64,000 bases of DNA from Taklimakanibacter lacteus. Lineage in GTDB: Bacteria; Pseudomonadota; Alphaproteobacteria; Rhizobiales; Aestuariivirgaceae. This document shows positions 2,472-23,471 of the stretch, piece after piece (the stretch's first letter is position 1; every line of letters begins with the position of its first letter). Where the stretch lies: assembly GCA_003576695.1 (NCBI GenBank), contig QOZQ01000005.1, forward strand, positions 1 to 64,000. The letters are read 5' to 3'. A program made the translations under genes and the position numbers. The notes below the pieces were generated by a model that was not told the origin of the DNA, made no database searches, and saw only the letters and a list, made by a program, of their open reading frames with translations.

Positions 2472-5400
2472 GTGACGAAAATTGGGTCTAGTCTCTCCTT
2501 GGGATCGGTGTGGGTTGCGGATGCGTTCGCGATGCCCCTGGCGCAACCATCGAAAAGGTGGATGCGACGCCCAATGGGCGCCAGCGCTCTCGCTGCGCTT
2601 GCTGTCAGCTGTTACCAATTCATCGATCTCTCGCAGGTGCGCGCCGACGATGCCTGTGTCGGCGGTGGTGGCATCATCACGTGCTCGGGCGACCAATCGG
2701 AAGGCGTCAACGGCTCAGGCAATACCAGCGTCACTGTCAACAACCTCAATCAGCCGATCGCACCTCCGGACAATGTACCAGGCATCATTGTCACCAATAC
2801 CGGCACAGGTGGATCGGACGGCGGCGGGATTGGCGAAGACGGTGGCAACGGCGGCACCGGTCCCAGTGTCCTTATCAATTTCGACGGAAGCCAGCCGATC
2901 AGCACCGATGGAACTCCCGCCGCCGGGATTTTCGGTCGCAGCACCGGCGGATCTGGCGGCAATGGCGGCAACGCAGCAATAGTCAATGCGGGCGACGCCG
3001 GAAACGGTGGTGCGGGAGGCTCCGTCACCATCAACAGCAGCGGCACCATTCAGTCTACGGGCACAGATTCGCCCGGTCTCATGGCGATCAGCCGCGGCGG
3101 GAATGGCGGCATCGGCGGTGATTCCTCGGTGACTGGCGATGCCGGCACCGGCGGCGGCGGTGGCGCGGCCGGTGCGGTGACGGTCAACAATCAGAGCAAC
3201 ATCACGACCGGTGAATCCGGCTCGGCGGGCATCATTGCCCGCAGCCTCGGCGGCAATGGCGGCAACGGCGGCGATGGTTTCCTCGTCATTATCGGAAGCG
3301 GCGGTGGCGGCGGAGCTACGGGCATCGGCGGTCCGGTCAATGTAACAAGCACCGGTGTCATCACAACCACGGGTCCGTCGAACGCGGCGGGCATCTTTGC
3401 CCAGAGCGTTGGCGGATTTGCCGGAAGCGGCGGTGACGCCATTGGCCTCATCACATTCGGCGGCGATGGAAACAGCGGCGGTCACGGCGGCAATGTCGAA
3501 GTCCATGTCAATGGCGGTTCGATCACCACGTCGGGATCCAGCTCATCCGCTGTGTTCGCCCAGTCGGTCGGCGGCGGCGGCGGCGCGGGCGGTGTCGGCG
3601 GCGGACTTGTGGGCTTTGGCGGCGCGGGCACGGTCGGCGGCAATGGCGGCACAGTTCTCGTCACTAATTCCGTGGCGCTGACGACGAACGGTGTCCAATC
3701 GGCGGGCATTTTCGCCCAAAGCGTCGGCGGCAGCGGCGGCTCCGGCGCACCAGCCGGCGGCGCTTTTGCCATAGGTGGATCCGGCGGACCCGGCGGCAAT
3801 GGATCGGGTGTCACCGTCAACAGCTCGGGTCCGATCACGACGCAACTCGAACAGTCGGATGGTATTTTCGCCCAGTCGGTCGGCGGCGGCGGCGGCAGTG
3901 GAGGCGTGGCCGGCGGGCTTGTCGGCATCGGCGGAACGGGTGGTGAAGGCGGCATCGGTGGCGCCGTTTCGGTGACGGCGAGCACCAGCATCACGACATC
4001 CGGCACCAATTCGGCCGGCATCTACGCCCAGTCGATCGGCGGCGGTGGCGGACGCGGCGGCGCCACCGGCGGCGTCGTCGCCGTCGGCGGCAAAGGTTCA
4101 AGCGGCGGCGGGGCCGGCACGGTGACCGTCAACAACTCGGCAGCGATCACCACCAATGGCATCGGCTCCGAAGCCATATTCGCGCAATCGATCGGCGGCG
4201 GCGGCGGCGATGGCGGCTTCGCCGGCGGCTGGTTCAATTTCGGCGGCAGCGGCGCCAAGGGCGGCAATGGCGGTCTCGTGACCGTCACCAATAGCGGCAA
4301 TCTCACCACTCACAAGGAACAGTCCTCGGCGCTCTTCGCGCAATCGGTCGGCGGCGGCGGCGGATCGGGCGGCGGTGCGGTGGGCGGCGGCCTGTTCATC
4401 TCGCTCTCGATCGGCGGCTCGGGCGGCCCCGGCGGCACAGGCGGCGAGGTCAAGATCAATGAATTCAACAATGCCGGAACGCCTGGTTACACGATCATCA
4501 CGGAAGGCGAGCGCTCGGCCGGCGTATTCGCCCAGTCGATCGGTGGTGGCGGCGGCAATGGCGGATATGCCGTGTCGGCGGCCGTCGGGCTTTATGGCGG
4601 TGCGGCGGCTTCATTCGGCGGCACTGCCGCCGGCGGCGGCGATGCGGCGCAGGTGATCGTCGGCAACAATGGCAGCATCACGACGAAGGGCAATTTCTCC
4701 GCCGGCATCAGCGCGCAATCGACGGGCGGCGGTGGCGGCGACGGCGGCTTCTCCATTGCCGCGGCTGCCTCGACAGGCGCCGCGGCGTCACTCTCCTTCG
4801 GCGGCAAGGGTGGCGCTGCCGGCGCCGGCAAGAAGGTGACAGTCAACAGCTTCACCACCATCGACACGACGGGCACTCAGTCGCATGGCATTTTCGCGCA
4901 TAGCGCCGGCGGCGGTGGCGGTACGGGCGGGTTTGCGATATCGGTCGCGGGCGCTCCCTATGGCGCGCTCGGCCTGAGCTTCGGCGGCGATGGCGCGGGC
5001 GGTGGCGCCGGCGGCGAGGTGCTGGTCAACAGCACCGGCAACATCACCACCAAGGGCACGCTGGCACACGGCATCCTGGCCGAGAGTATCGGCGGCGGCG
5101 GCGGCTCGGGCGGCTTCAGCATCGCCGCGGGGCTGACGATCTCATCCGGCGGCGTCTCGGCCGATCTCAGCTTCGGCGGCAAGGGCGATGGCGGCGGCGA
5201 AGGCCAGAGGGTCGATGTCAACAGCACCGGCAAGATCGATGTCGCCGGGCAAGGCGCCATCGGCATTTTCGCGCAGAGCGTCGGCGGCGGCGGCGGCAAT
5301 GGCGGCTTCGCCGGCGCGCTCAGCGTCGCGGCGGGGACGACCTTCGGCCTGAGCATGGGCGGTGCCGGCGGCACGGCCAGCAAAGGCGGCATCGTGAATG

Positions 5401-8400
5401 TCACCAATAACGGAACCATCGTCACCGGCGGCGAGAACGGCATCGGCATTCTTGCCCAGTCGATCGGCGGCGGTGGCGGTTATGGCGGTTTCGGTCTGGT
5501 CGGCACCTTCAGCCTCGATGGCGATGCCGAAGGTCACAGCATCGGCGGCACAGGGGGCAAGGGCGGTGCGGGCGACAACGTCACCGTCAATCACACCGGC
5601 GATATCACAACGAACGGCAACAACGCAGCCGGCATCCTGGCCCAGTCGGTGAGCGGCGGCGGCGGCACCGGCGGCTTCAGTGCCGGCGTTTCCGCCTCGT
5701 ACAAGGCCAACGCAAAGCTCGGCGGCGTCGGCGGCACCGGCGGCGATGCGGCCAATACCACGGATGACAACCTGACCGTCGTGACGGTCAATGCCGGTGG
5801 CGGCAAGATCCTGACCAAGGGAGCAATGTCGCACGGCATTCATGCGCAATCGATTGGCGGCGGCGGCGGATCGGGTGGTTTTGCGGTGGGTGCCGGCCTC
5901 AGCATCAAGGGCGAGTCCGAGGCGGAAGTCGGCGGCGGCAGCGCCGGAGCTGGCGGCAATGCCGGTCAAGTGAAGGTCACCAATAGCGGAGCGATCGAGA
6001 CCCAGGGCCATCTTGCCATCGGCATCTTCGCGCAGTCGGTCGGCGGTGGCGGCGGGACCGGCGGCTTCGCGATCGGCGGCAGCTTCACCTCGGGCGATGA
6101 CGCCGGCGCGGCGACCAACAGCGTGGGCGGATCGGGCGGCGTCGCCAGCCGTGGCGGCAATGTCGAAGTCACCAATCAGGCTTCCGGCACCATCCTGACC
6201 CTCGGCAACCGCTCGCATGGCATCCAGGCGCAATCGATCGGCGGCGGGGGCGGATCGGGCGGCTTCGCCATCGGAGCCGCGGTGAGCCTCGATGGCGATG
6301 CCGAATCCGATATCGGCGGCGGGGCAGGTGGCGCCGGCGGCAATGCCGGAACCGTGACGGTCGTCAATCATGGCAGCATCGAAACACGCGGCAAGGATGC
6401 GATCGGCGTGTTCGCGCAGTCGGTCGGCGGCGGCGGCGGCGATGGCGGCTTCTCGATCACCGGCAGCTATGGAAGCAAGGCCGCCAATAACAGCGTCGGC
6501 GGCAATGGCGGTGGCTCGAGCATGGGCGGCACTGTGTCGGTAACGAATACCGGCTCGATCACGACCGGCGAGGTCAATTCTATCGGCATCCTGGCGCAGT
6601 CGATCGGCGGCGGCGGCGGCAGTGGCGGCTTCTCGATCTCGGCGGCGCTCAGCAGCGACGAAGGCGGCGAGAATTCCAGCGTCGGCGGCGAGGGCACCGG
6701 CGGCGGCAATGGCGGCGATGTGACCGTCATCAATTCGGGCACCATCCTCACCAAGAAATCGGAATCGACCGGCATCAAGGCGCAGTCGATCGGCGGCGGC
6801 GGCGGCAATGGCGCCTTCACGATCGCGGGCTCGCTGAGCAGCGGCGGCGATACGACCTCGAGCGTCGGCGGCAATGCCGGCGGCGGCGGCAATGGTGGCG
6901 TCGTCAAGGTCACCAATACCGGAACGATCACGGTCGCCGGCGCCAACTCCTTTGGTGTCTTCGCGCAAAGCGTCGGCGGCGGCGGCGGATCGGGCGGCAT
7001 TTCCGGCGGCCTCTCGACCGGCGGCCAGATCGACAATGTGGTGGGCGGTTCCGGCGGCAAGGGCGGCAATGGCGGCGAAGTCACGGTGGAGAGCAGCGGC
7101 GACATCTTCGTGACCGGCGCCAACTCGTCGGCGGTGTTCGCGCAAAGCGTCGCCGGCGGCGGCGGCTGGGGCGGCCTCTATCTTGGCCTGGGCGGCGGCG
7201 GTTCGGACGGATTGAAGGTCGGGCTCGGCGCCACGGGCAATCCGCTCGACGGTCTGCCGGTGACGGGCGAGACCGGCAAGGTCACCGTCACCATCAACGG
7301 CCAGACCACGATCACCGAAGGCAAGCTCTCCTATGGATTGCTGGCCCAGGCGATCGGCGGCGGTGGCGGCGCGGCCGGCACCGTGATGGACGGGCTCCTG
7401 AATTTGACCGGCAGCAATGTCGTCATGGATGTCGGCTCGAATGGCGCGATGAACGGCCATGGCAAGCTGCTGACCGGCTCCTACAGCAATGACGCCACGA
7501 TGGGCGGTGTCGGTTCCATCGGCCTCATCGCCCAGTCGATCGGCGGCGGCGGCGGCGTCAACGGCATGGCGCTCGACCAGGTCAGCCTCAATCCGGCAGG
7601 CAATGACGAATTCCTCATCCGGGTCGGAGGCTTCAGCGCCGGCGCCCAGCATACGGGCGGCGGCACTGGCGGCGGGTTCGACTTCACCGCCACGGGCACG
7701 GTCACGACCAAGGAGAAGAACGCCATCGGCGTGCTCGCCCAGACCATCGGCGGCGGCGGCGGCGTCGGCAATCTCACGGTGGAGAGCGTCACCAACACGG
7801 CCAATGCGCTCAGGATCACGGTCGGCGGCTCGCAATTGACCGAAGGCGATGGTGGTGACGCTTCCAAGGTGACTGCGCAGGACACGATCGTGACCGGCGG
7901 CGCCCTGAGTCACGGAATGGTGGCGCAATCGATCGGCGGCGGCGGCGGCGTGTCCAACCTCCTGTTCCAGAATGGCGTCTCGACGAGCGGCGTCACGATC
8001 ACGCTGGGCAGCGGCGGAACCGGCGCCGGCGGCGATGGCGGCGATCTGACGGCGACGGCTGCGGATGTATCCACCACGGGGTCGGGCGCGATGGGCATCG
8101 TCGCCCAGTCGATCGGCGGTGGCGGCGGCCTGACCGGCATCTTCAGCAACGGCCTGATCTTCGGCCAGGACGGCTTCTCGGCCGGTCCTCTCACCATAGT
8201 CGGCGGCGCGGCGGCGGATGGCGATGGCGGTGTCGTCGCCGTCTTCGCCAATGGCGCGGTGCATACGACGGGCTATGGCGCGCATGGCGTCGTGGCGCAG
8301 TCGATCGGCGGCGGCGGCGGCATTGCCGGCGGCGGCCTGTTCGCCACCACGCTCGGCGGCACCAGCGCCTTCGCGGGCAGCGTCGGCGGCGACGGCAGCG

Positions 8401-10592
8401 GCAAGGACGTCGATGTCACGACATTGCGCAATGTGGTGGTCGCCGGGCAGAACAGCGTCGGCATCTTCGGCCAGAGTGCCGGTCCCGACGGACAGGGCGC
8501 CGTCGACATCCGCGTCGACAAATCCGGCAATGGCGTCGGCCTGATCTGGGCCCTGGCCGGCATGGGATCGGCGGTGCAGTTCGCCGATGGCGCCACCAAT
8601 ACGCTGCAGACGGACGGCACGCTCTATGCCCAGGGCAGCATCGTCGGGACGGGTCTGCCCAATCTGGGCGGCATCGCCATTCGCGGCGGCAGCGGCGATG
8701 AGAACCTGACCAACCTCGCTTATCTGTTCCCGGCGGCACCGCCGCCCGGAACCTTCGGCTTCGGCGCCGATTATGGCGTGCTGTTCGACATGACCACCGG
8801 CGCGCTCGATCCCGTCACCAACCTGCCGCTCTTCGATGCCGGGACGCGCACCAACAACATCATCGGAAATGTCGATGTGGCGGGCGGCAACAACAATCTC
8901 ACCAACCAGGCGGGCGCGCTCTTCATCACCGAAAAATCCGTCACACTGGATGATGACGGCAATCCCAACCCGTTGGGCTCAGGCCAGGAACTCACCAATC
9001 ATGGCCTGCTGTCGCCGGGCGATCGCGGCCGCATCCAGGTCACCGACGTGGGCGGCAATTTCGTCGAAACCCTGACCGGCAAATATTTCATCGACATCGA
9101 CCTCAACCAGCAGAATACCGGCAATCAGCTCACCGACCGGCTCAATGTGACGGGCGGATCTGGCGTAGGCGGCGAAGGCGGATTGCTGCTGCTTTCCATC
9201 AACAAGGCGTTCACCGAGTATGTGATCGTCAGCTCAGCTGAAGGCACGGCGGACAACGGCTTCACCCCCAAGCTGACGCCGCCCGCCATCGGCTTCAATT
9301 TCAAGGTGAAGCTCGCCAATGCCGACCAGGACCTGGTGCTCTATGCCGATAAACCGCCGCTCGAGGATCTGTTAAAGGATCCGGCCTCGGGAACGCGCGA
9401 TCCCAATGTCTGGCGCATGGGCGAAGGCCTCGACAATATCGAGAACGCGATCACGGTCGATGACCCGTTCAACTATCTGATCAACATCCTGCGCCTGCAG
9501 CCCGACGCGAAGGCGCTCGGCGATGCGGTCGTGACGCTGACGCCGAGCCAGGCGCCGCATATCTTCGAGGCCACCTTCCGCCGCAACATGGCGTTCCTCG
9601 ACCAGATGATCGACTGCCCCCAGGATTTCGGACAAGGCTGGTTTGCCGACCGGCGCAGCTGCGTGTGGGGAAAGTTCAGCTACAGCGTATATGACCGCGA
9701 CAGCGTCGAGGACAGCCCGACCAATGCGGATGTCTATAGCGGGTTCAGCTTCGGCGCCCATGCGGCGGTCGACGAGAACTGGCAGCTCGGCTTCGGATTC
9801 GAGAAGGGCGAGATCAATTCCGACCAGGAGCGCGACGGATCGCCACTTTCGACGCTCGAGAGCGACATCTATCAGTTCGGCGCCTCGGCCACCTACCGCA
9901 ATTCGGGCTTCGGAATGGCGCTGGCGGCGGCCGGCTCCTATGGCGACTGGGACGCCAGGCGCTTCGTCAATGTCAACGGCTTCGTCCAGAATTATACGAG
10001 CTTCGAGGGCATCATGATGAACGAGGCGGGCGTCGAGCAGCCGGCCTTCGTCAACAACGAGATCGTGTTCGACGGCGTCTCCGGCACCGCGCGCAGCAAG
10101 CCTGAGGTCTTCACCTTCAACCCGCGCCTGCGGCTGAGCTATATCGACACTTTCGGTGGCGTCGACGTGATGCCCTATCTCGATGTCGACGCCTATATCC
10201 TGCACAGCGAGCGGCGCGAGGAGGAAGGCGTCGGCCTCACCAATCTCGAATATCCGGCGAAGACCGAGACGGCCTTCACCTTCACGCCGGGCCTCGAGCT
10301 CGGCGGCACGACGCAGCTCGACGAGGGATCGGCGATCCGCGCCTTCCTGCGCGGCAGCGTCATGCTGGCCACCGATGACAGCTGGACGGCGCTGACGCAG
10401 TTCGCCGCGGCGCCGGAGGGATTGCCCGATATCGAGATCATCGACGATTACGACGATGTCCTCGGCAAGGTCGATGCGGGTCTCATGGCCTTCGGGGCCT
10501 GGGGCCATCAATTGCGACTCAACTACAGCGGCATATTCGGCGAGACCACCGAGCAGCATGCGGTGAGCGGCGACTTCACCTACCGGTTCTAG
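2472..10592 (+). CDS. Giant Gly-rich autotransporter (type Va secretion), 2706 aa
   Basis: A GTG start at 2472 follows a GGGGG-containing leader. The N-terminus is long (about 58 residues) with a basic segment, a hydrophobic stretch (ASALAALAVSCY) and a plausible signal-peptidase site after VRA, resembling extended autotransporter signal peptides. Residues of about 60-2100 form the passenger, built of about 32 imperfect repeats (period near 63 residues) each centred on AQSIGGGGGSGGF-like blocks between short beta strands, which suggests a beta-helix. Residues of about 2396-2706 are the membrane barrel (GKFSYSVYDRD onward) ending in the terminal aromatic motif YRF used by the BAM complex. The likely role is surface adhesion or matrix; the ligand is unknown. 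Synonymous repeat DNA makes this gene prone to recombination and misassembly. Confidence 0.93.
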   Translation: MTKIGSSLSLGSVWVADAFAMPLAQPSKRWMRRPMGASALAALAVSCYQFIDLSQVRADDACVGGGGIITCSGDQSEGVNGSGNTSVTVNNLNQPIAPPDNVPGIIVTNTGTGGSDGGGIGEDGGNGGTGPSVLINFDGSQPISTDGTPAAGIFGRSTGGSGGNGGNAAIVNAGDAGNGGAGGSVTINSSGTIQSTGTDSPGLMAISRGGNGGIGGDSSVTGDAGTGGGGGAAGAVTVNNQSNITTGESGSAGIIARSLGGNGGNGGDGFLVIIGSGGGGGATGIGGPVNVTSTGVITTTGPSNAAGIFAQSVGGFAGSGGDAIGLITFGGDGNSGGHGGNVEVHVNGGSITTSGSSSSAVFAQSVGGGGGAGGVGGGLVGFGGAGTVGGNGGTVLVTNSVALTTNGVQSAGIFAQSVGGSGGSGAPAGGAFAIGGSGGPGGNGSGVTVNSSGPITTQLEQSDGIFAQSVGGGGGSGGVAGGLVGIGGTGGEGGIGGAVSVTASTSITTSGTNSAGIYAQSIGGGGGRGGATGGVVAVGGKGSSGGGAGTVTVNNSAAITTNGIGSEAIFAQSIGGGGGDGGFAGGWFNFGGSGAKGGNGGLVTVTNSGNLTTHKEQSSALFAQSVGGGGGSGGGAVGGGLFISLSIGGSGGPGGTGGEVKINEFNNAGTPGYTIITEGERSAGVFAQSIGGGGGNGGYAVSAAVGLYGGAAASFGGTAAGGGDAAQVIVGNNGSITTKGNFSAGISAQSTGGGGGDGGFSIAAAASTGAAASLSFGGKGGAAGAGKKVTVNSFTTIDTTGTQSHGIFAHSAGGGGGTGGFAISVAGAPYGALGLSFGGDGAGGGAGGEVLVNSTGNITTKGTLAHGILAESIGGGGGSGGFSIAAGLTISSGGVSADLSFGGKGDGGGEGQRVDVNSTGKIDVAGQGAIGIFAQSVGGGGGNGGFAGALSVAAGTTFGLSMGGAGGTASKGGIVNVTNNGTIVTGGENGIGILAQSIGGGGGYGGFGLVGTFSLDGDAEGHSIGGTGGKGGAGDNVTVNHTGDITTNGNNAAGILAQSVSGGGGTGGFSAGVSASYKANAKLGGVGGTGGDAANTTDDNLTVVTVNAGGGKILTKGAMSHGIHAQSIGGGGGSGGFAVGAGLSIKGESEAEVGGGSAGAGGNAGQVKVTNSGAIETQGHLAIGIFAQSVGGGGGTGGFAIGGSFTSGDDAGAATNSVGGSGGVASRGGNVEVTNQASGTILTLGNRSHGIQAQSIGGGGGSGGFAIGAAVSLDGDAESDIGGGAGGAGGNAGTVTVVNHGSIETRGKDAIGVFAQSVGGGGGDGGFSITGSYGSKAANNSVGGNGGGSSMGGTVSVTNTGSITTGEVNSIGILAQSIGGGGGSGGFSISAALSSDEGGENSSVGGEGTGGGNGGDVTVINSGTILTKKSESTGIKAQSIGGGGGNGAFTIAGSLSSGGDTTSSVGGNAGGGGNGGVVKVTNTGTITVAGANSFGVFAQSVGGGGGSGGISGGLSTGGQIDNVVGGSGGKGGNGGEVTVESSGDIFVTGANSSAVFAQSVAGGGGWGGLYLGLGGGGSDGLKVGLGATGNPLDGLPVTGETGKVTVTINGQTTITEGKLSYGLLAQAIGGGGGAAGTVMDGLLNLTGSNVVMDVGSNGAMNGHGKLLTGSYSNDATMGGVGSIGLIAQSIGGGGGVNGMALDQVSLNPAGNDEFLIRVGGFSAGAQHTGGGTGGGFDFTATGTVTTKEKNAIGVLAQTIGGGGGVGNLTVESVTNTANALRITVGGSQLTEGDGGDASKVTAQDTIVTGGALSHGMVAQSIGGGGGVSNLLFQNGVSTSGVTITLGSGGTGAGGDGGDLTATAADVSTTGSGAMGIVAQSIGGGGGLTGIFSNGLIFGQDGFSAGPLTIVGGAAADGDGGVVAVFANGAVHTTGYGAHGVVAQSIGGGGGIAGGGLFATTLGGTSAFAGSVGGDGSGKDVDVTTLRNVVVAGQNSVGIFGQSAGPDGQGAVDIRVDKSGNGVGLIWALAGMGSAVQFADGATNTLQTDGTLYAQGSIVGTGLPNLGGIAIRGGSGDENLTNLAYLFPAAPPPGTFGFGADYGVLFDMTTGALDPVTNLPLFDAGTRTNNIIGNVDVAGGNNNLTNQAGALFITEKSVTLDDDGNPNPLGSGQELTNHGLLSPGDRGRIQVTDVGGNFVETLTGKYFIDIDLNQQNTGNQLTDRLNVTGGSGVGGEGGLLLLSINKAFTEYVIVSSAEGTADNGFTPKLTPPAIGFNFKVKLANADQDLVLYADKPPLEDLLKDPASGTRDPNVWRMGEGLDNIENAITVDDPFNYLINILRLQPDAKALGDAVVTLTPSQAPHIFEATFRRNMAFLDQMIDCPQDFGQGWFADRRSCVWGKFSYSVYDRDSVEDSPTNADVYSGFSFGAHAAVDENWQLGFGFEKGEINSDQERDGSPLSTLESDIYQFGASATYRNSGFGMALAAAGSYGDWDARRFVNVNGFVQNYTSFEGIMMNEAGVEQPAFVNNEIVFDGVSGTARSKPEVFTFNPRLRLSYIDTFGGVDVMPYLDVDAYILHSERREEEGVGLTNLEYPAKTETAFTFTPGLELGGTTQLDEGSAIRAFLRGSVMLATDDSWTALTQFAAAPEGLPDIEIIDDYDDVLGKVDAGLMAFGAWGHQLRLNYSGIFGETTEQHAVSGDFTYRF
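2915..8530 (+). repeat. Tandem imperfect Gly-rich repeats inside the autotransporter passenger
   Basis: I count about 32 copies of a block with the pattern (G/A)-(I/V)-x-A-Q-S-(I/V)-G-G-G-G-G-x-G-G-F, spaced roughly 190 bases apart. Early copies (up to about 3420) and late copies (after about 7140) are more degenerate than the middle ones, and the last reads GIFGQSAGPDG. Confidence 0.9.
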
Positions 10593-15791: not shown

Positions 15792-16250
15792 TCAGTTGCG
15801 CTGCTTCAGGAAATCCCGGAAGGCGTTCAAGGTCTCGAGGCTGACATGATGCTCGATGCCCTCGGCATCGACTCGGGCGATTTCCGGGCTGATGCCGAGC
15901 GCGCAGAGGAAATTCTCGACGATCTGGTGGCGCTCGCGGCTCTTCCCGGCAAGGCTCGAGCCCTCCTCGGTGAGGAACACGCCGCGATAGGGGCGCTGCT
16001 GGATGAGACCGTCGGCGGCGAGCCGCTTCAGCATCTTGGCGACGGTCGGCTGGGCGACGCCCAGACGCTGGGCAATATCGACCTGGCGCGCCTCGCCGCG
16101 GTCGGCAATGAGATCGGCAATGAGCTCGACATAATCCTCGACCAGCTCGGTGCGCCGGTTGTGGCGGGTCTGGCGGAAGCTTTCGACATGAGTATCGGCG
16201 TCCACCAAAGTGCTTTCGGGGATCGCTGCGGCTTTCTTCACTTTCATCAC
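15792..16250 (-). CDS. mntR: Manganese-responsive DtxR-family repressor MntR
   Basis: 152 residues, the usual length for proteobacterial MntR. The winged helix is visible ([32 protein letters not shown]), followed by the metal-binding dimerisation helices with [17 protein letters not shown] and [11 protein letters not shown], where the Glu/His residues of the family's metal site lie. It lacks the SH3 domain of DtxR/IdeR, which separates MntR from iron sensors. It is transcribed divergently from the multicopper oxidase/ZIP operon, and two inverted repeats of the MntR type lie in the shared 126-bp spacer, so both autoregulation and control of that operon are likely. Confidence 0.9.
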
Positions 16251-16270
16251 GGCACTCGGAAATAAACTTC

Positions 16271-16284
16271 TTAGCTCCGGCTAT
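16271..16284. promoter_or_regulatory. Candidate MntR operator, mntR-proximal
   Basis: TTAGC-TCCG-GCTAT: short inverted arms with a four-base spacer, continued by ACGATGTT on the right. Its geometry matches the second site at 16312. It starts 21 bases from the mntR start codon, suited to autorepression. It is less symmetric than the other site. Confidence 0.5.
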
Positions 16285-16311
16285 ACGATGTTCCTGGATT
16301 AACATCAAAAC

Positions 16312-16325
16312 ATAGCCATTGCTAT
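16312..16325. promoter_or_regulatory. Candidate MntR operator, oxidase-proximal
   Basis: ATAGC-CATT-GCTAT is preceded by AAAAC and followed by AACATT. The core matches the known enterobacterial MntR box, AACATAGC...GCTATGTT, in sequence and roughly in spacing. It lies 52 bases upstream of the oxidase start, in an AT-rich promoter region. Confidence 0.62.
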
Positions 16326-16376
16326 AACATTACTCTTGTGCTCTTATTATTGCCCGGGGCTAACAAGGAGCGGATC

Positions 16377-17522
16377 ATGTCGGGCTGGTTGCCATTCGAC
16401 CTCAAACGGCGCGGCTTCATGGGCGCGGGGCTGCTCGCGGCAAGTGCGGCGGTCATCGGTACCAAGCGTGCGCTTGGGCAGGCGGATCAGGCGTCCGCAC
16501 ATCACGGCCACCAGGCCGCGACGACAGGCTCTGCCCAGTATGATGCCGGCAATCACATGAACGCCCATGGCGAGATGATCACCATTGGCGATGTCGATTA
16601 TGCGCGCAACGGATTCGATCCAACACCGATGCTCACCCAATGGGAAACGGGCACTGTCTCGATCCTTCCCGATGGGCGCAGGCTGCGCAGCTTCGAGGTG
16701 ACCGCCGAGGACAAGGAGATCGAGATCGCGCCCGGCGTCATGTTCCCGGCCTGGACCTTCAATGGCCGCGTGCCGGGCCCGGCTCTGCGCGCCACCGAGG
16801 GCGATCGGGTGCGCATCACCTTCAGGAATTTCGGATCGCATCCGCATTCGATGCATTTCCATGGCTTCCATGCGGCGCGCATGGACGGCATTCCGGGCGC
16901 CGGCCTGGTGCCGCCGGGCGGCGAATTCATCTACGAGTTCGATGCCCGGCCCTATGGCTGCCATCTCTATCACTGCCACGCTTTGCCGCTGGCGCGTCAT
17001 ATCCACAAAGGCATGTATGGCCTGTTCGTGATCGATCCGGATCCCGAGAAGCATCCCGAAATGGCGGCCGCCGCCAGATCGCGCCTCTTCGGCACGCCCG
17101 AGAATGCGCAATGGCAGGAAATGGCGATGGTGATGAACGCCTTCGACACCAATTTCGACGGCGAGAACGAGTTCTATGCCTGCAACACCATCGCGCACTG
17201 CTATGCCAAGCAGCCGATCAAGGTGGTGAAGAGCCGGCCGGTGCGCATCTATCTGGTCAATGTGACCGAGTTCGACCCGATCAACTCCTTCCACCTGCAT
17301 GGCAATTTCTTCGACTATTACGACCAGGGCACGACGCTGACGCCGACGCTCAGGACCGTCGATGTCATCATGCAGTGCCAGGCGCAGCGCGGCGTTCTCG
17401 AATTCACCTTCGCCGAACAGGCCGATCACGAGCCCGGCCTCTACATGTTCCATGCGCATCAGTCGGAATTCACCGAGCTCGGCTGGATGGGCATGTTCGA
17501 TGTCGTCGAGGCGCTGTCATGA
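16377..17522 (+). CDS. Tat-exported two-domain multicopper oxidase
   Basis: 381 residues from an ATG with AAGGAG eight bases upstream. The N-terminus carries a twin-arginine signal (KRRGFMGAG) and then a His-rich spacer (SAHHGHQ). Two cupredoxin domains follow. Domain 1 has HFHGFH (160-165) and HCHALPLARHIHKGM, giving HCH at 199-201 plus a downstream His and Met as a type-1 copper set. Domain 2 has FHLHGNFF and MFHAHQSEF, which supply trinuclear-centre histidines but no type-1 Cys. This corresponds to a type-C two-domain oxidase, active as a trimer in known relatives. Overlap with the ZIP gene (ATGA) and the MntR-type sites point to oxidation of a transition metal, perhaps Mn(II) or Fe(II). 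Confidence 0.85.
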   Translation: MSGWLPFDLKRRGFMGAGLLAASAAVIGTKRALGQADQASAHHGHQAATTGSAQYDAGNHMNAHGEMITIGDVDYARNGFDPTPMLTQWETGTVSILPDGRRLRSFEVTAEDKEIEIAPGVMFPAWTFNGRVPGPALRATEGDRVRITFRNFGSHPHSMHFHGFHAARMDGIPGAGLVPPGGEFIYEFDARPYGCHLYHCHALPLARHIHKGMYGLFVIDPDPEKHPEMAAAARSRLFGTPENAQWQEMAMVMNAFDTNFDGENEFYACNTIAHCYAKQPIKVVKSRPVRIYLVNVTEFDPINSFHLHGNFFDYYDQGTTLTPTLRTVDVIMQCQAQRGVLEFTFAEQADHEPGLYMFHAHQSEFTELGWMGMFDVVEALS

Positions 17523-18709
17523 GCCTGGAACAGACATCCGACGTCCCAGCGTCGCGTCCTTGGACGAAGCTATTATGGGCGCTGGCGCCGCTCGCCCTTC
17601 TCATCGCCGCTCTGTGGTGGCTCATTGCCGGCAATCTCCTCGGCCAGTTCAGCAATGGCGCGCCGCCGGTCGAGAATCTCACCATCGAGCGCACCATCCT
17701 CGACCAGAACGGTTTGCGCCTCCTGGTGCGGGGCGGCGGCTCGGCACCGATGACCATCGCGCAGGTGCAGGTCGATGCCGCCTATTGGCGCTTCACCCAG
17801 GATCCGCCCGGCGAGATTGCGCGCGGCAGCGCCGCCTGGGTCGCCATCCCCTTTCCCTGGGTGCTGGGCGAAGCGCACAAGGTGACCTTCGTCACCAACA
17901 CCGGCGCCACATTCGAGCATGACATTCCCGTCGCCGTCGAGACGCCGCAAGCGACGTCGCTCAATTTCGCCGCGCAGGCGATGCTCGGCGCCTTTGTCGG
18001 CATCGTGCCGGTGGTGATCGGCCTCATGTTCTATCCGGCCTTGCGCGGCGCCGGCCCGGCGCTGATAAGCTTCCTGCTCGCGATGACGATCGGCCTTCTC
18101 CTCTTCCTCCTGATCGACACGATGGAGGATGCGCTCGAATTCGCCGGGCGCTCGGCGACGATCTTCCAGGGTCCGATGATGGTGATCCTTGCCGCCGCGG
18201 CGAGCTTCATCGTGCTGCTCGGCATCTCACGCCGGCAGGGCCAGCCGAGCGGCCTGGCACTCGCCACCTATATCGCCATCGGCATCGGGCTTCACAATCT
18301 GGGTGAGGGCCTTGCCATCGGTGCGGCCTTCGCGGCGGGTGCGGCGGGTCTCGGCACTTTCCTGGTGATGGGCTTCACGCTGCACAACATCACCGAGGGC
18401 GTCGGTATCGCCGCACCGCTGCTCAAGCTCCAGCCGTCGCTCGCCCGCTTCGCCGGCCTGGCGCTCATCGCCGGCGGGCCGGCGGTGATCGGCATGTGGG
18501 CGGGAAGCCTGGCCTATGCGCCGCACTGGTCGGCGCTGGCGCTTGCCATCGGCGCCGGCGCCATCCTGCAGGTCATCATCGAGGTTGGCGCCTTCCTCAC
18601 CCGCTCGTCTGAGAGGCCGCTCAACGGGCTTATGACGCCGCCCGTTCTCGCCGGTATCGCCGTGGGCGTGGCGCTCATGTATGCGACCGCCATGCTGGTC
18701 AAGATCTGA
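17519..18709 (+). CDS. ZIP-family metal transporter with extracytoplasmic N-terminal domain
   Basis: 396 residues; the ATG overlaps the oxidase stop by four bases, so the two are translationally coupled. A first membrane helix (about 19-40) is followed by about 110 residues of beta-rich extracytoplasmic domain (about 45-155), then about eight helices. The ZIP metal-site motifs are HNLGEG (His near 259) and HNITEG (His near 288), the TM4/TM5 pair that binds divalent metal in ZIP proteins. Classical bacterial ZIPs of the ZupT type lack the N-terminal domain. The likely substrate is Mn(II), Fe(II) or Zn(II), with Mn favoured by the MntR context. It ends converging with a gene remnant. Confidence 0.87.
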   Translation: MSLEQTSDVPASRPWTKLLWALAPLALLIAALWWLIAGNLLGQFSNGAPPVENLTIERTILDQNGLRLLVRGGGSAPMTIAQVQVDAAYWRFTQDPPGEIARGSAAWVAIPFPWVLGEAHKVTFVTNTGATFEHDIPVAVETPQATSLNFAAQAMLGAFVGIVPVVIGLMFYPALRGAGPALISFLLAMTIGLLLFLLIDTMEDALEFAGRSATIFQGPMMVILAAAASFIVLLGISRRQGQPSGLALATYIAIGIGLHNLGEGLAIGAAFAAGAAGLGTFLVMGFTLHNITEGVGIAAPLLKLQPSLARFAGLALIAGGPAVIGMWAGSLAYAPHWSALALAIGAGAILQVIIEVGAFLTRSSERPLNGLMTPPVLAGIAVGVALMYATAMLVKI

Positions 18710-19290: not shown

Positions 19291-20049
19291 TCAACGGAGC
19301 TTGCCCAACGCATCGCTCTCCACCTCCGCCTCGAGCGCCGGCCCGGCACCCAGGGCTTCGAGATAGGCGTCGAGCGTCTCCGCCGATGAAGCGGGCCTGT
19401 AGCCATCCCCCACGCCGCCCTCGATGCGCATCGCGAAATCGACACCCCATTTGCCGGGGCCGTGGCAAGCCACCACCAGATAGTTGCCCATATCGGCGCG
19501 GCTGATCCGGAATTCCCGGCAGAGCGCCTGGTCGCCGCGATGGAAGGAAGAAATCATGGCGATCTCGGCGCCGGAACTTGCCAACCGTGAGCTCTTGCCG
19601 GCCGGGAGGCTCGATAGCAGCCGCGCCAATTCCGGATCGGCGGCGGCCGCAATCTCATAGAAGCCGGGAGACCCTGCATTCTGGGTCGCGATCCAGTATC
19701 CGATGGCGCCCGAGATCACGGCGAGCACCGACGCCGCCATCGGCAGGGCCCAATTGCGGAAGGGCTGCCGCGATGCCGCTGCCTTTGCCGGCTTCATGGC
19801 CGTGACCGTGGCGGACGAGGCGTTGCGGATCATGTCCTCGACCGAGGCCTTGAGCCCGCCCGGCACCGGTTCGCCAAGATGCGCCCTGACGCTTTCGGCA
19901 GAAGCTTCCCGTGTTGCGACAAACAGAGCGATGCGCCGGGCCAGATCGGGACGCTGCGGCAGCAGATCGGCCAGCCTTGCCGCCTTGGCCGCCTGCATCT
20001 CGCCGTCGGCATAAGCCATCAATTCCTCGTCGGTGAAATCATCGCTCAT
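19291..20049 (-). CDS. Membrane-anchored anti-sigma factor
   Basis: 252 residues starting MSDDFTDEELMAYADGEM, a common opening of alphaproteobacterial anti-sigma factors. Residues of about 1-60 form the cytosolic sigma-binding part and lack the HxxxCxxC zinc site of ZAS proteins. One membrane helix follows near residues 102-124 (WALPMAASVLAVISGAIGYW), then a periplasmic domain of about 125 residues with two cysteines (ALCREF, VACHG). The start at 20049 overlaps the sigma gene by 11 bases. Release of the sigma factor probably requires proteolysis or a conformational change in the periplasmic part; the divergent subtilase is a candidate partner by proximity only. Confidence 0.83.
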   Translation of the reverse strand: MSDDFTDEELMAYADGEMQAAKAARLADLLPQRPDLARRIALFVATREASAESVRAHLGEPVPGGLKASVEDMIRNASSATVTAMKPAKAAASRQPFRNWALPMAASVLAVISGAIGYWIATQNAGSPGFYEIAAAADPELARLLSSLPAGKSSRLASSGAEIAMISSFHRGDQALCREFRISRADMGNYLVVACHGPGKWGVDFAMRIEGGVGDGYRPASSAETLDAYLEALGAGPALEAEVESDALGKLR

Positions 20050-20590
20050 GGCTATCGACCTTGTTGTCACGATGGGAACGGCTGGCCGGCTGATCTATTC
20101 CGGTGCTTGCCGCTAAGTTCGCCCGCGCGCGCGCCAGCCGGCTCATCACCGTGCCGATCGGGATACCGAGCACGTCCGCGGCTTCTCGGTAGGAAAGCTC
20201 CTCGACACAGACCAGGAGCAGCACCTCGCGCTGATCGCCAGCGAGATCGCCAATGGCACTCCAGACCTGCCTCAGCATCAGCCGATGCTCCGGCGCCATG
20301 CCGGCATCGCCTGCAAGCCTGCCCTCATGGAGGCCGATTTCCTCACGCGGGCCGGCGGTGCGGTCACGGCGCATCTGGTCGATCCATAGATTGCGCAGGA
20401 TGCGGAACATCCAGGCATCGAACCGCGTGCCCGGCGCAAAGGACGACGCATTGGCAATCGCCCTTTCGCAGGCAAGCTGCACCAGGTCGTCGGCGAGGTC
20501 CGACGAGCGGCAGAGCGAGATGGCGAACCGGCGCAGATTGGGCAGGAAGCCGATCAGCCGGGAACCGAAATCCTCAGGAAGTCCTGCCAT
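20039..20590 (-). CDS. ECF-type RNA polymerase sigma factor
   Basis: 183 residues. Region 2 is visible as DLADDLVQLACERAIANA...RFDAWMFRILRNLWIDQMRR. Region 4 is EVLLLVCVEELSYREAADVLGIPIGTVMSRLARARANL, with the helix-turn-helix that reads the -35 element. A short Arg/His-rich tail follows. The gene forms an operon with the overlapping anti-sigma gene and diverges from the subtilase. No GGAAT-type promoter is visible upstream of this gene itself on its own strand, so classical autoregulation is not supported by what I can see. Confidence 0.9.
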   Translation of the reverse strand: MAGLPEDFGSRLIGFLPNLRRFAISLCRSSDLADDLVQLACERAIANASSFAPGTRFDAWMFRILRNLWIDQMRRDRTAGPREEIGLHEGRLAGDAGMAPEHRLMLRQVWSAIGDLAGDQREVLLLVCVEELSYREAADVLGIPIGTVMSRLARARANLAASTGIDQPASRSHRDNKVDSHER

Positions 20591-20646: not shown

Positions 20647-20729
20647 ATCACGATGCCCGGCTGTGATCGGATCGCATGCCGATGCCGCAATGGCAAGCCC
20701 GGCGGTACCGAGGAACCAAGGAGGCGACA

Positions 20730-22103
20730 ATGGACGAATACCGCAGATGGATGCGCAGGCTCGTCGCGGCGCTTGGCGGGCTCATCGTGATCACCATCGG
20801 CGTGCCGCATCTGACGGGAAGCTCCGCCGGCTTCATCGCGACGGCCACGGCGGATGATGATGACGATGGCGGCGATGACGATGATGGTGGTGGCGCATCC
20901 TCGTCGCGGGGAGGCCGCGATGGCGGGGCGCGAAGGTGGAAGCCGAGGAAGAGCATCTTCGACAGGGCGCGGCCATCCCGCCCGCCAAAGCGGCGACGCG
21001 CCGCCGTGCGGCCGACCCGGCCCGCTTTCGCGCCGGCGGAGCTCATCGGCCGGAACATCGCCGGTGACGATGTCGCGCGCCTCGCAGCGGCGGGCTACAC
21101 CATCCTCGAGCAGATGACGCCCGGCGGCTCTGGACGGACGATCTATCGCCTGCGCATCCCGCCACGGCTGACGCTCAGCCAGGCGCGCGCCGAAATCGCC
21201 GTCGCATCGCCACAAGCCACGATCGATCTCAATCACTACTACAAGCCCGATGCCGAGACACCCTGCACCGCGAGTGCGTGTCTGGCCCGCCACATGATCG
21301 GATGGACCCCGGCGAGCGCGGACATGGCCTCGTGCAGCGCCGGATTGCGCATCGGCATGATCGATACCGCCATAAATGCCGAGCATGACGCGCTGGAGGG
21401 CAGCCGGATCGAGGTGAAGCGTCTCGCCGGCGACGAGCTGCCGGTCTCCGGTAAGCAGCATGGAACGGCGATCGCGGCGCTCCTCGTCGGCAAACCCGAC
21501 GGCCGTTCGCCAGGACTGGTGCCCGAGGCAACCCTCATCGCCGTCGATGCGTTCCACCGCTTCCGCGGCGGGTCCGATATTTCCGATGCCTATAGCCTCG
21601 TCAAAGGCTTGGACTACCTCGACAGTCGCGGGGTCGATATCATCAATCTGAGCTTCACCGGCCCGCCCAATTCGGTTCTCGAAGACACGATCCGCGAGTT
21701 GGCGCGGAAAGGCATCGTGCTCGTGGCGGCGGCCGGCAATGACGGCCCCCGCGCCAAGCCCCTCTATCCCGCCGCCTATCCCGAGGTCGTCGCCGTGACG
21801 GCGGTTGACAGGAACAAGCGTCCCTATCGGCGCGCGGCGCGCGGCTCCCATATCGATATTGCCGCGCCCGGCGTCAATGTCTGGATCGCCGCCTCGGTCG
21901 AGGGATCGCGGCCGCGGACCGGAACGTCCTTCGCAGCACCTTTCGTGACGGCGGCGCTGGCGCTCGCCCGCAAGCACGCAGCCGGCACCGAAGGAGGCGC
22001 AGCGCTGATGCATGTGACCGGTTCGGCCGAGGACCTGGGCGCGCCCGGCAAGGACGATGTCTTCGGCTGGGGTCTTCTCAACCCCAGGGGGCTGTGCGGC
22101 TAG
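20730..22103 (+). CDS. Secreted subtilisin-like serine protease (S8 family)
   Basis: 457 residues from an ATG behind AAGGAGG. The N-terminus has a signal peptide or anchor (ALGGLIVITIGV), an Asp/Gly-rich acidic stretch (about 43-57) and a basic Arg/Pro linker, then a propeptide-like segment (AELIGRNIAGDDVARLAAAG). The S8 domain has the full triad: Asp near 211 (IGMIDTAIN), His near 244 (KQHGTAIAALLVG) and Ser near 400 (GTSFAAPFVTAALA). VVAVTAVDRNK and IAAPGVNVW are further family markers. The acidic run may bind calcium. It is divergent from an ECF sigma/anti-sigma pair and probably under that sigma factor's control. The substrate is unknown. Confidence 0.9.
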   Translation: MDEYRRWMRRLVAALGGLIVITIGVPHLTGSSAGFIATATADDDDDGGDDDDGGGASSSRGGRDGGARRWKPRKSIFDRARPSRPPKRRRAAVRPTRPAFAPAELIGRNIAGDDVARLAAAGYTILEQMTPGGSGRTIYRLRIPPRLTLSQARAEIAVASPQATIDLNHYYKPDAETPCTASACLARHMIGWTPASADMASCSAGLRIGMIDTAINAEHDALEGSRIEVKRLAGDELPVSGKQHGTAIAALLVGKPDGRSPGLVPEATLIAVDAFHRFRGGSDISDAYSLVKGLDYLDSRGVDIINLSFTGPPNSVLEDTIRELARKGIVLVAAAGNDGPRAKPLYPAAYPEVVAVTAVDRNKRPYRRAARGSHIDIAAPGVNVWIAASVEGSRPRTGTSFAAPFVTAALALARKHAAGTEGGAALMHVTGSAEDLGAPGKDDVFGWGLLNPRGLCG

Positions 22104-22258: not shown

Positions 22259-22600
22259 TCAACGCCGCCATTTCCCCCATCTGCGCGAAGAGTTCGAAGA
22301 GCTGTTGGAGCTCGAATTCGACGACGAGTTGGAAGATGAGTTGGAGCTCGAATTGGAGGAGCTGTTCGAGCTCGAATTCGATGACGAATTGGAGGAACTG
22401 TTCGAGCTAGAGTTGGAGGAGCTGTTCGAGCTCGAATTCGATGACGAATTGGAGGAGCTGTTCCCCGCCAGGATGATCTGGCCGCTCGTGCCAGTCACGC
22501 TCTGCATGCCCAGCAAATCAGGCTTGGCCACGGTCATCGCTTGCGCCGCACCGGTGCCAAGGCCCAAGGCCAGGGCTCCCAGGATCACTTTGCGTTTCAT
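22259..22600 (-). CDS. Secreted NSSS-repeat peptide with Trp/Arg tail
   Basis: 113 residues. A clean signal peptide (MKRKVILGALALGLGTGAAQA) is followed by about 25 ordinary residues (ending QIILAG), then 14 consecutive Asn-Ser-Ser-Ser units plus Asn-Ser-Ser, and a cationic aromatic end, RRWGKWRR. The ATG at 22600 has AAAGGA eight bases upstream; 22615 is a weaker alternative. The repeat DNA has a 12-base period. Composition suggests an extended, possibly glycosylated stalk carrying a charged tip to a membrane or polysaccharide. I recognise no family. It converges with the subtilase gene and shares its promoter pattern. Confidence 0.75.
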   Translation of the reverse strand: MKRKVILGALALGLGTGAAQAMTVAKPDLLGMQSVTGTSGQIILAGNSSSNSSSNSSSNSSSNSSSNSSSNSSSNSSSNSSSNSSSNSSSNSSSNSSSNSSSNSSRRWGKWRR

Positions 22601-22653
22601 GCTGTTTCCTTTCATCAAGGTTGCGAGTGGCTCAGGGGCGCACTCCATCGGCA

Positions 22654-22678
22654 AACGGGCGAGCGGCGCGGCTATTCC
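22654..22678 (-). promoter_or_regulatory. ECF-type promoter for the NSSS-repeat peptide (GGAAT-N16-CGTT)
   Basis: Read on the minus strand, GGAAT is at 22678-22674 and CGTT at 22657-22654 with a 16-base spacer, 54 bases before the ATG. This is the same pattern and spacing as the promoter ahead of the subtilase. Confidence 0.55.
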
Positions 22679-22682
22679 CCGT

Positions 22683-23471
22683 TCATGACCTCTTCGCCCG
22701 GGCGAATTTCCGGTACCAGCCTTCGCCGGCGATTGTGTTGCGGCGAATGCGCTCGCGCTCCTCGCTCTCTTGCAACTGCTCGCGGCGAACGGAAAACCCC
22801 CGAGCTTCATCCGCCTCGGCGTCGATGGCCGGCGCGAGCGCACTGTCGGTGCGCCGGAAGGGAATGACCTGCACCAGAGGCGTGCCTCTTTCGAGGGTGT
22901 GCACGCCGTCGGCGCCGGTGGCGAAGAACGGGAAGTTGACCAGCGAATGATAGCTGTCTGTATCGACCACGCCGGCCATGATCTCGACCGGAAGCGGCTC
23001 GCGATTGAGCGGCGCCACGAACAGGCAGCTCCATCCGGGCGGGGTCTTGATGGTCCAGTAATTGTGAAACTTCATCGGCGGATGGTCGGCGCGCGGATGC
23101 CCGGCGATCTGGTGGCTGCCATGGTTGCTGACCATGACCTTGTCGAATTCCCAGCCGGCATTGACCGTCTTGCCGCCCTCCGAGATTTCAAGGCGGGTCG
23201 TGGCGGCCAGAGGCAGGATATAGCCGAGCGCCATAGCGTCTAGGAACGGCATGCAGCGCTTGACGGTCAGGCCGTTATTGGTCGCCGACACGACGGAAGG
23301 CTCGATCGCGGGGATCCGCCGAAACCAGTCGGGCAGGACCGTTTTGGCGGGAACCGGTTCGGCGATCACGCCTTTATCCTGCGGATCGCAGATGAATTCG
23401 ATCGTATGGCAGGGTTCGCCTGACGCCTCCGGACGGCTGCGTGTGAATCTGAGAATATCCCGTAAAGCCAT
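22683..23471 (-). CDS. DUF6065 family protein
   Basis: 262 residues from MALRDILRF. Internal features include TVLPDWFRRIPA, LPLAATTRLEI, FHNYWTIKTPPGWSCLFVAPLN and WYRKFARAKRS at the end. The pattern fits DUF6065, a cytosolic family of unknown function found near secondary-metabolite and phage-like genes; my assignment is from memory of the motif set. There is no signal peptide or membrane helix. GAGGAG lies about 10 bases upstream of the chosen start; the ATG 18 bases earlier is less favoured. Its end is five bases from the NSSS-gene promoter. Confidence 0.7.
   Translation of the reverse strand: MALRDILRFTRSRPEASGEPCHTIEFICDPQDKGVIAEPVPAKTVLPDWFRRIPAIEPSVVSATNNGLTVKRCMPFLDAMALGYILPLAATTRLEISEGGKTVNAGWEFDKVMVSNHGSHQIAGHPRADHPPMKFHNYWTIKTPPGWSCLFVAPLNREPLPVEIMAGVVDTDSYHSLVNFPFFATGADGVHTLERGTPLVQVIPFRRTDSALAPAIDAEADEARGFSVRREQLQESEERERIRRNTIAGEGWYRKFARAKRS

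Follow-up and report, generated by a model that had tools for sequence, protein, structure and literature searches.

Coupling of an oxidase to a permease is known for iron, as in the Fet3-Ftr1 system of yeast, and the manganese-linked pair of a multicopper oxidase (MCO) and a ZIP-type transporter described here would be a variant of this design. The pair was recognized next to mntR in a 64,000-nt stretch of Taklimakanibacter lacteus DNA (Alphaproteobacteria, Rhizobiales; contig QOZQ01000005.1, positions 1 to 64,000), which is referred to as the window throughout. A point of comparison from physiology is provided by a non-oxidizing double mutant of Pseudomonas putida GB-1, which reportedly lacks two MCO genes. 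Intracellular manganese in this mutant was 1/59 of the wild type level according to the respective paper, which called the reason for bacterial Mn(II) oxidation elusive in 2013 and suggested, as possibilities, a Fet3-Ftr1-like coupling of manganese oxidation to uptake or the uptake of Mn(III) (PMC3798386). In Rhizobium leguminosarum, Mur is reported to control sitABCD and mntH (PMC5575495), and type C two-domain MCOs are characterized by a T1 copper site in the N-terminal domain (PMC13151041). A description of the MCO-ZIP pair was not found in searches of one open-access library, subscription papers and preprints being outside that search.

The strongest conclusion drawn from our comparisons is that the MCO and the ZIP probably work together in the acquisition of manganese or, in some lineages, of iron. 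A joint function is suggested by the fixed gene order, the gene overlap, the co-occurrence of both genes and a natural fusion; the link to manganese derives from the promoter sites, from MntR, Mur-like or DtxR-like regulators and from Nramp or GDT1 genes in the neighbourhood.

Results

Gene arrangement and distribution of the MCO-ZIP pair

The mntR gene (15792-16250, minus strand) encodes a manganese-responsive DtxR-family regulator of the short E. coli type. Its product scored 247.2 bits against the NCBIfam model NF008273 (curated cut-off 153) and was the sole match in the genome above this cut-off; the nearest solved relative is PDB 2h09, deposited as 'Transcriptional regulator mntR' (E 7e-57). 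Divergently oriented and separated by a spacer of 126 bp (16251-16376), the plus-strand MCO gene extends from its ATG at 16377 to the stop at 17522 and encodes a Tat-exported two-domain protein of 381 aa. The gene of the ZIP-type (ZupT-like) transporter (396 aa) follows on the same strand with its ATG at 17519 and its stop at 18709, the four bases ATGA being common to both genes. These coordinates confirmed the layout given in the original prediction, i.e. mntR divergent across a 126-bp spacer from a Tat-dependent MCO whose gene overlaps that of a ZIP transporter by ATGA. The MCO and ZIP genes are presumably co-transcribed.

The same arrangement recurred far beyond the window. At least 587 ZIP relatives were confirmed in a collection of 84,980 species genomes, and the best 80 of them constitute the named loci analyzed here. 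An MCO gene was situated directly upstream of the ZIP gene on the same strand in all 80 loci, with a few MCOs cut by contig ends or frame-broken, and a 4-base overlap of the two genes was found in 58 of the 80 when starts were chosen automatically. Among 60 genomes near that of the window, 13 contained the ZIP, including the window's own genome; in the 12 other relatives the MCO adjoined the ZIP in every case and mntR did so in 5, with some contigs too short to include the neighbouring gene. The class sample of 289 genomes contained the ZIP in 7, again counting the window's own, and the same 7 genomes harboured the MCO subfamily (>600 bits) in adjacent position, while the other MCO matches listed in this sample stayed below 110 bits. 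Of 398 genomes of the phylum, 5 carried the ZIP, counting the window's own and one partial copy. Furthermore, the ZIP was matched in 147 plasmid records (E 1e-5) and the MCO in 144 (E 1e-40), among them plasmid NC_012586.1 of Sinorhizobium fredii NGR234, on which the two genes are neighbours; a viral collection contained no relative of the pair. The taxonomic range covers Alphaproteobacteria, Litchfieldella (L098, presumably a gammaproteobacterium), Cyanobacteria, Deinococcus, Actinomycetota, Bacillota and haloarchaea. Locus L101 is recorded under Verrucomicrobiaceae but is similar to rhodobacterial loci, for example L102, and may be misbinned.

Downstream neighbours of the pair vary by lineage, and a universal third gene was not found. 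A small Rieske gene directly follows the ZIP gene in the bacterial plasmid loci L115, L117, L119 and L123 and is located after a DoxX gene in L160, and the haloarchaeal loci L121, L156, L157 and L158 possess a plastocyanin-like gene after the ZIP gene (both calls were taken from annotation and checked with Pfam in L115, L119 and L121). The presence of such genes after the pair points to an electron exchange between the oxidase and a carrier in some lineages.

A plasmid of Deinococcus sp. KNUC1210 carries a ZIP followed by an MCO within one open reading frame of 603 aa (L164:3686-5497). The ZIP half contains the motifs HNLSEG and HNATEG and remained below the Pfam Zip cut-off, and the MCO half has a T1-type Cys in its second domain, which assigns it to another MCO type outside the subfamily found in the pair. 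L164 was the only plasmid record in which a single place covered at least 80% of the fused protein. Since this protein joins the same two protein kinds, it supports their functional coupling.

An apparently decayed copy was noticed in L155 (6968-7620, genome G501), where an mntR match of 42 residues directly adjoins a ZIP match comprising approximately the last 180 residues; no MCO match was seen in this 14-kb locus.

Metal regulators and transporters in the neighbourhood

Neighbours within 1 kb were classified by single-query tblastn, with MntR, DtxR, Fur, Nramp and GDT1 regarded as manganese-type. At least one such feature was present in 43 of the 80 loci. MntR itself was detected within 1 kb in 34 of 80, upstream and divergent, which is the outcome of the search for the pair beside mntR in other genomes that had been proposed along with the original prediction. 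In three genomes of the class sample (L142, L143 and L145), MntR is encoded downstream on the same strand. Across this sample of 289 genomes MntR occurred in 40, and it was present in 4 of the 7 genomes containing the ZIP, adjacent to the pair in all 4. Moreover, an MntR or DtxR-family regulator was found within about 1.1 kb in 12 of 23 annotated plasmid loci, which were hand-picked for variety. Eight MntR/DtxR-like proteins from seven loci outside the Proteobacteria all contain a FeoA domain.

Fur-family proteins were encoded within 1 kb in 9 of 80 loci, 8 of them devoid of MntR. When one of these neighbours was compared to solved structures, the closest were 5fd6 and 5fd5 (E 3e-50), deposited as 'Ferric uptake regulation protein', which we take to be the manganese regulator Mur of Rhizobium. 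Transporter genes of the Nramp family are placed directly 3' of the ZIP gene in L140, where the product exceeded the MntH subfamily cut-off, and in L029, which has a divergent mntR; an Nramp gene is convergent with the pair in L095, a DtxR-Nramp unit is divergent from it in the Deinococcus locus L163, and distances of 3-6 kb were found in L061, L115 and L160. In the class sample Nramp was detected in 40 of 289 genomes, including 1 of the 7 with the ZIP. GDT1 genes are located near the pair in L115 and L158. Among the 46 loci without MntR, neighbours within 2.5 kb that were named by eye included MerR-like (7), CDF-like (6) and P-type ATPase (6) genes, and several plasmid copies of the pair sit among copper or heavy-metal genes.

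Palindromes in the mntR-MCO spacer

The spacer contains two MntR-box-like palindromes, identified by a consensus scan based on the MntR-type palindrome ATAGC-N4-GCTAT. The mntR-proximal site TTAGC-TCCG-GCTAT (16271-16284) matches this consensus in 9 of 10 positions and the site on the MCO side, ATAGC-CATT-GCTAT (16312-16325), in 10 of 10; both sites had already been named in the original prediction. Spaced by 41 bp, they are kept in three further species of this genus in which the pair is present (L019, L020 and L021); no ZIP match was obtained in the fourth member of the genus that was sampled (G004, 87% complete). The site on the MCO side overlaps the hexamer TATAAC in the window and TATAAT in the three relatives, which resembles a -10 element; a consensus promoter scan returned no sigma-70 match, and the -10 overlap is derived from the alignment of the relatives. 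This overlap would fit repression by MntR. Altogether, predicted MntR-type palindromes conserved in the genus and beyond are present in the promoter region, as expected for a member of an MntR regulon, and MntR presumably binds to them, with scarcity of the metal relieving repression as the probable direction of regulation.

The core sequence TAGC-N4-GCTA occurs twice in the 64-kb window, both times inside the spacer; of 2200 control windows taken from related loci, 3 contained it. Palindromes with at most one mismatch were observed 3 times in the window compared to 0.88 expected, 3 being reached by 5 of 100 shuffled sequences. In 12 MntR-linked loci (L030-L037, L041, L043, L046 and L059), a site is positioned 61-73 bp 5' of the MCO match. 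After omission of two of the 80 loci in which the contig end was too close, TAGC-N4-GCTA was detected in the 400 bp preceding the MCO match in 25 of 34 mntR-linked loci, 12 of which have two copies, and in 9 of 44 unlinked loci. Requiring 9 of 10 matches within 300 bp upstream yielded 13 of 34 linked loci, 10 of 44 unlinked loci and 9 of 2931 control windows. These counts are not independent because many loci are close relatives; 7 of the 9 unlinked site-bearing loci belong to Mesorhizobium. The perfect palindrome is found twice in the whole genome, and no clear gene was seen at the second place (C18:421955).

Sequence features of the MCO and the ZIP-type transporter

Both Cu-oxidase_3 and Cu-oxidase_2 were identified in the MCO above the Pfam cut-offs, and its twin-arginine leader includes the motif DLKRRGFMG, in which the two Arg residues are nearly invariant among relatives. 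Copper ligands were assigned from the sequence together with the known motif spacing in MCOs, using an alignment of 96 sequences from which 4 partial MCOs of the 80 loci were omitted. The T1 ligands H157, C200 and H208 as well as the trinuclear-site residues H160, H162, H199, H201, H306, H308, H359 and H361 are invariant in 96 of 96 MCOs, and the axial T1 position 213 is occupied by Met in 75 and by Leu in 21. An axial Leu raises the T1 potential. As the last HxH motif (H359-A-H361) lacks a Cys, the T1 site is confined to domain 1, which classifies the protein as type C by ligand positions; the four trinuclear HxH motifs typical of this type are all present. The nearest solved sequences are PDB 7rab (547 bits) and 3gdc (322 bits), and no paper naming 7rab was found in the open-access literature search. 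Three functional labels were considered for the MCO and rejected: copper nitrite reductase (TIGR02376, 88 bits, cut-off 296.3), CopA (TIGR01480, 86 bits, cut-off 478.95) and CueO (NF008205, 49.6 bits, cut-off 525).

At E 0.001, the transporter encoded at 17519-18709 is the sole protein of the genome that matches PF02535. Its sole NCBIfam match is the ZupT model with 24.5 bits (cut-off 252), and since it falls below the cut-offs of both PF02535 and ZupT we consider it a divergent relative and call it ZIP-type. The metal-site motifs of TM4 and TM5 of the ZIP family are present as two copies of HN-x2-E. All 100 aligned sequences share H259, N260, E263, N290, E293, Q351 and M387, and 99 of them have H289. 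A hydropathy scan called a membrane segment at residues 18-36, a hydrophilic stretch of 117 residues (37-153) and then seven segments above the cut, as compared to eight in the ZIP core, with both HN-x2-E motifs just outside the called segments. Concerning the extracytoplasmic N-terminal domain originally predicted, the additional hydrophilic domain itself was recovered, and by the usual ZIP topology this stretch probably lies outside the cytoplasm. Within it, Q82 and W114 are conserved in 100 of 100 sequences, H120 in 88 and H134 in 84. An FTR1-family permease was not found in the partner of the MCO, PF02535 being its sole Pfam match at E 0.1.

Other putative manganese uptake genes and further genes of the window

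The genome (G000) additionally encodes a SitCD-like pair of ABC-3 permeases (C18:240175-241799, L150). The TGCA-type repeat TGCAATTGCAACTCATTTGCA, which we take to be Mur-like, precedes a presumed sitA gene, so named from gene order and leader. The combination of a SitCD-like pair with a Mur-like repeat implies that a Mur-like regulator and MntR may each govern a part of manganese uptake in this genome. No Nramp match was obtained in the window's genome at E 1e-20.

Elsewhere in the window, a glycine-rich repeat protein of 2706 aa, whose C-terminus resembles that of autotransporters by eye, is encoded at 2472-10592 (plus strand). An ECF sigma factor with Pfam sigma-70 regions 2 and 4 and a possible anti-sigma partner, which has no Pfam match at E 0.1, are encoded on the minus strand (19291-20590), and a gene for a subtilase-like protein (by eye) is divergent from them (20676-22103, plus strand). 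The open reading frame at 22259-22843 (minus strand) contains a leader-like stretch and, following it, a long SNSS repeat tract.

Discussion

A role of the operon in manganese acquisition is, in our assessment, likely for the lineage of the window. The fuller statement, in which the MCO of this manganese acquisition operon also acts on the metal pool by redox chemistry, is held with less confidence, and we still favour it. According to this explanation, MntR would leave the two palindromes when manganese is scarce, and both divergent promoters would open. The MCO would fold with copper, exit via the Tat pathway and act in the periplasm beside the ZIP, whose extra domain is a likely docking or metal-collecting part. 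The metal would then enter the cell through the HN-x2-E/HN-x2-E site of the ZIP core. The MCO would work by redox on the same metal pool, most likely oxidizing Mn(II) or the competitor Fe(II) at the transporter mouth, and this oxidation would either drive uptake toward manganese or make it manganese-selective. Concerning the oxidase-coupled manganese uptake put forward in the original prediction, the comparison of gene order, sites, regulators and fusion supports a link to manganese as well as a functional pairing of the two proteins; as to mechanism, the oxidase may change the redox state of the metal or deliver it to the ZIP domain. From sequence data, manganese appears as the probable cargo, a metal of the same pool as the probable oxidase substrate, and physical contact between MCO and ZIP as conceivable.

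Several observations weigh against this explanation. The transporter reached 24.1 bits against PF02535, which has a gathering cut-off of 35.1. Of the 7 genomes in the class sample that carry the pair, 3 lack MntR; TAGC-N4-GCTA is absent from 9 of the 34 MntR-linked loci, and neither manganese-type nor heavy-metal features were present within 1 kb in 32 of 80 loci. Genome-wide, palindromes with at most one mismatch are not enriched (142 compared to 268 in the reversed control); as palindrome counts alone are weak, we relied on position and conservation of the sites. Two of the Fur neighbours matched the iron regulator Fur best among the NCBIfam models (86-90 bits, cut-off 146). For three DtxR-like proteins from distant phyla the MntR model was best but below cut-off, with iron DtxR ranking second, so that either manganese or iron may be sensed there. 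Furthermore, the fused protein of L164 contains a different MCO type and has ArsR and CDF neighbours, ArsR is also encoded at one Bacillota locus, and 13 of 80 loci feature a MerR, CsoR or ArsR regulator or a P-type ATPase within 1 kb, 8 of these being manganese-type as well (PCuAC copper chaperones, found at 6 of 80 loci, were left out of this count). Finally, the SitCD-like pair rules out that the MCO-ZIP pair is the cell's sole plausible manganese importer.

Some of these neighbours would suit other functions. The MerR, CsoR, P-type ATPase, CDF-like and PCuAC genes that accompany a minority of the pairs, several of them on plasmids, would be expected of a copper or heavy-metal tolerance module that travels in metal islands, with the MCO detoxifying Cu(I) and the ZIP supplying Zn or Mn under stress. 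We consider this improbable, since manganese-type features within 1 kb prevail over heavy-metal ones (43 versus 13 of 80), MntR-type sites are located at the promoter and the MCO remained far below the CopA and CueO cut-offs. Concordantly, pairs situated mainly beside copper or zinc regulators, which would have spoken against the original prediction, are not what these counts revealed. Acquisition of iron by an oxidase-permease system in which a ZIP replaces Ftr1, under control of iron-sensing Fur or DtxR-like proteins in some lineages, is to our mind just as improbable. It draws on Fur/DtxR-family neighbours, for some of which iron models ranked best or second below cut-off, and on a VIT1/CCC1 gene near the Arthrobacter pair; it has to contend with a window regulator above the MntR equivalog cut-off, with the similarity of the compared Fur protein to 5fd6/5fd5, taken to be Mur, and with MntH/Nramp and GDT1 neighbours.

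For the last step of the favoured explanation, manganese acquisition with a redox contribution of the MCO, two alternative ways are conceivable. The MCO may act as a ferroxidase or cuprous oxidase that clears Fe(II) or Cu(I) at a promiscuous ZupT-like ZIP, Mn(II) entering unoxidized. ZIPs carry divalent ions, and the HN-x2-E core, the ZupT model as sole NCBIfam match, though far below cut-off, and the strict MCO-ZIP pairing together with manganese-type regulators are consistent with such a selectivity filter. In air at neutral pH, however, Fe(II) does not persist for long, and the gain from its removal may be small, so that we regard the filter as possible but somewhat doubtful. Alternatively, the MCO would generate Mn(III), and the extra ZIP domain would receive it directly for import, similar to channelling in Fet3-Ftr1. 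This is compatible with the fixed order, gene overlap and natural ZIP-MCO fusion, with the invariant Q82 and W114 in the extra domain and with the intact copper sites, including the axial Met (75/96) or Leu (21/96). We know of no ZIP that carries trivalent ions, oxidation of Mn(II) needs a high potential, and two candidate metal ligands, H120 (88 of 100 sequences) and H134 (84 of 100), are not fully conserved, which makes channelling unlikely in our view, even if uptake of Mn(III) was raised as an idea in PMC3798386.

A broader version of this mechanism would be an ancient oxidase-coupled manganese importer of bacteria and archaea, in which Mn(III) is produced from Mn(II) by a periplasmic type C MCO and delivered to the extra ZIP domain, with electrons transferred to oxygen or, where a Rieske or plastocyanin gene is present, to a carrier. 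We rate this, too, as unlikely. If true, the importer would be to manganese what Fet3-Ftr1 is to iron, and would provide one physiological reason for bacterial Mn(II) oxidation. As the module is present in culturable rhizobia, Deinococcus and haloarchaea, the idea of oxidation-coupled manganese uptake is directly testable. Moreover, our analysis points to a possible function of two protein groups: two-domain MCOs for which solved relatives exist, and divergent ZIPs that are mostly annotated only as 'metal transporter' in plasmid records.

Compared to the type C MCOs 7rab and 3gdc, which it matches with 547 and 322 bits, the MCO of the window has the T1 site in the N-terminal domain in common; the literature search gave no biological role for these relatives, whereas a tie to a transporter and to MntR is seen here. 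With ZupT and other ZIP transporters the window protein shares the HN-x2-E motifs; it differs in its scores below the family cut-offs, in the extra membrane segment and hydrophilic domain and in its constant MCO partner. In P. putida GB-1, manganese oxidation accompanies higher intracellular manganese, which is the likeness to the window system, and the paper names no linked transporter (PMC3798386). The MntR-MntH and Mur-SitABCD/MntH systems resemble the present one in their MntR or Mur-like regulators, and the pair is followed by Nramp in L029 and L140 and faces a DtxR-Nramp unit in L163; an oxidase and a ZIP are added here. Fet3 is a larger, membrane-anchored oxidase, in contrast to the two-domain type C enzyme of the window. 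Both Fet3-Ftr1 and the MCO-ZIP pair combine an MCO with a permease, which is FTR1 in yeast and ZIP-type here; oxidation is coupled to import in yeast and proposed to be so in the pair, to which a manganese-type regulator is linked.

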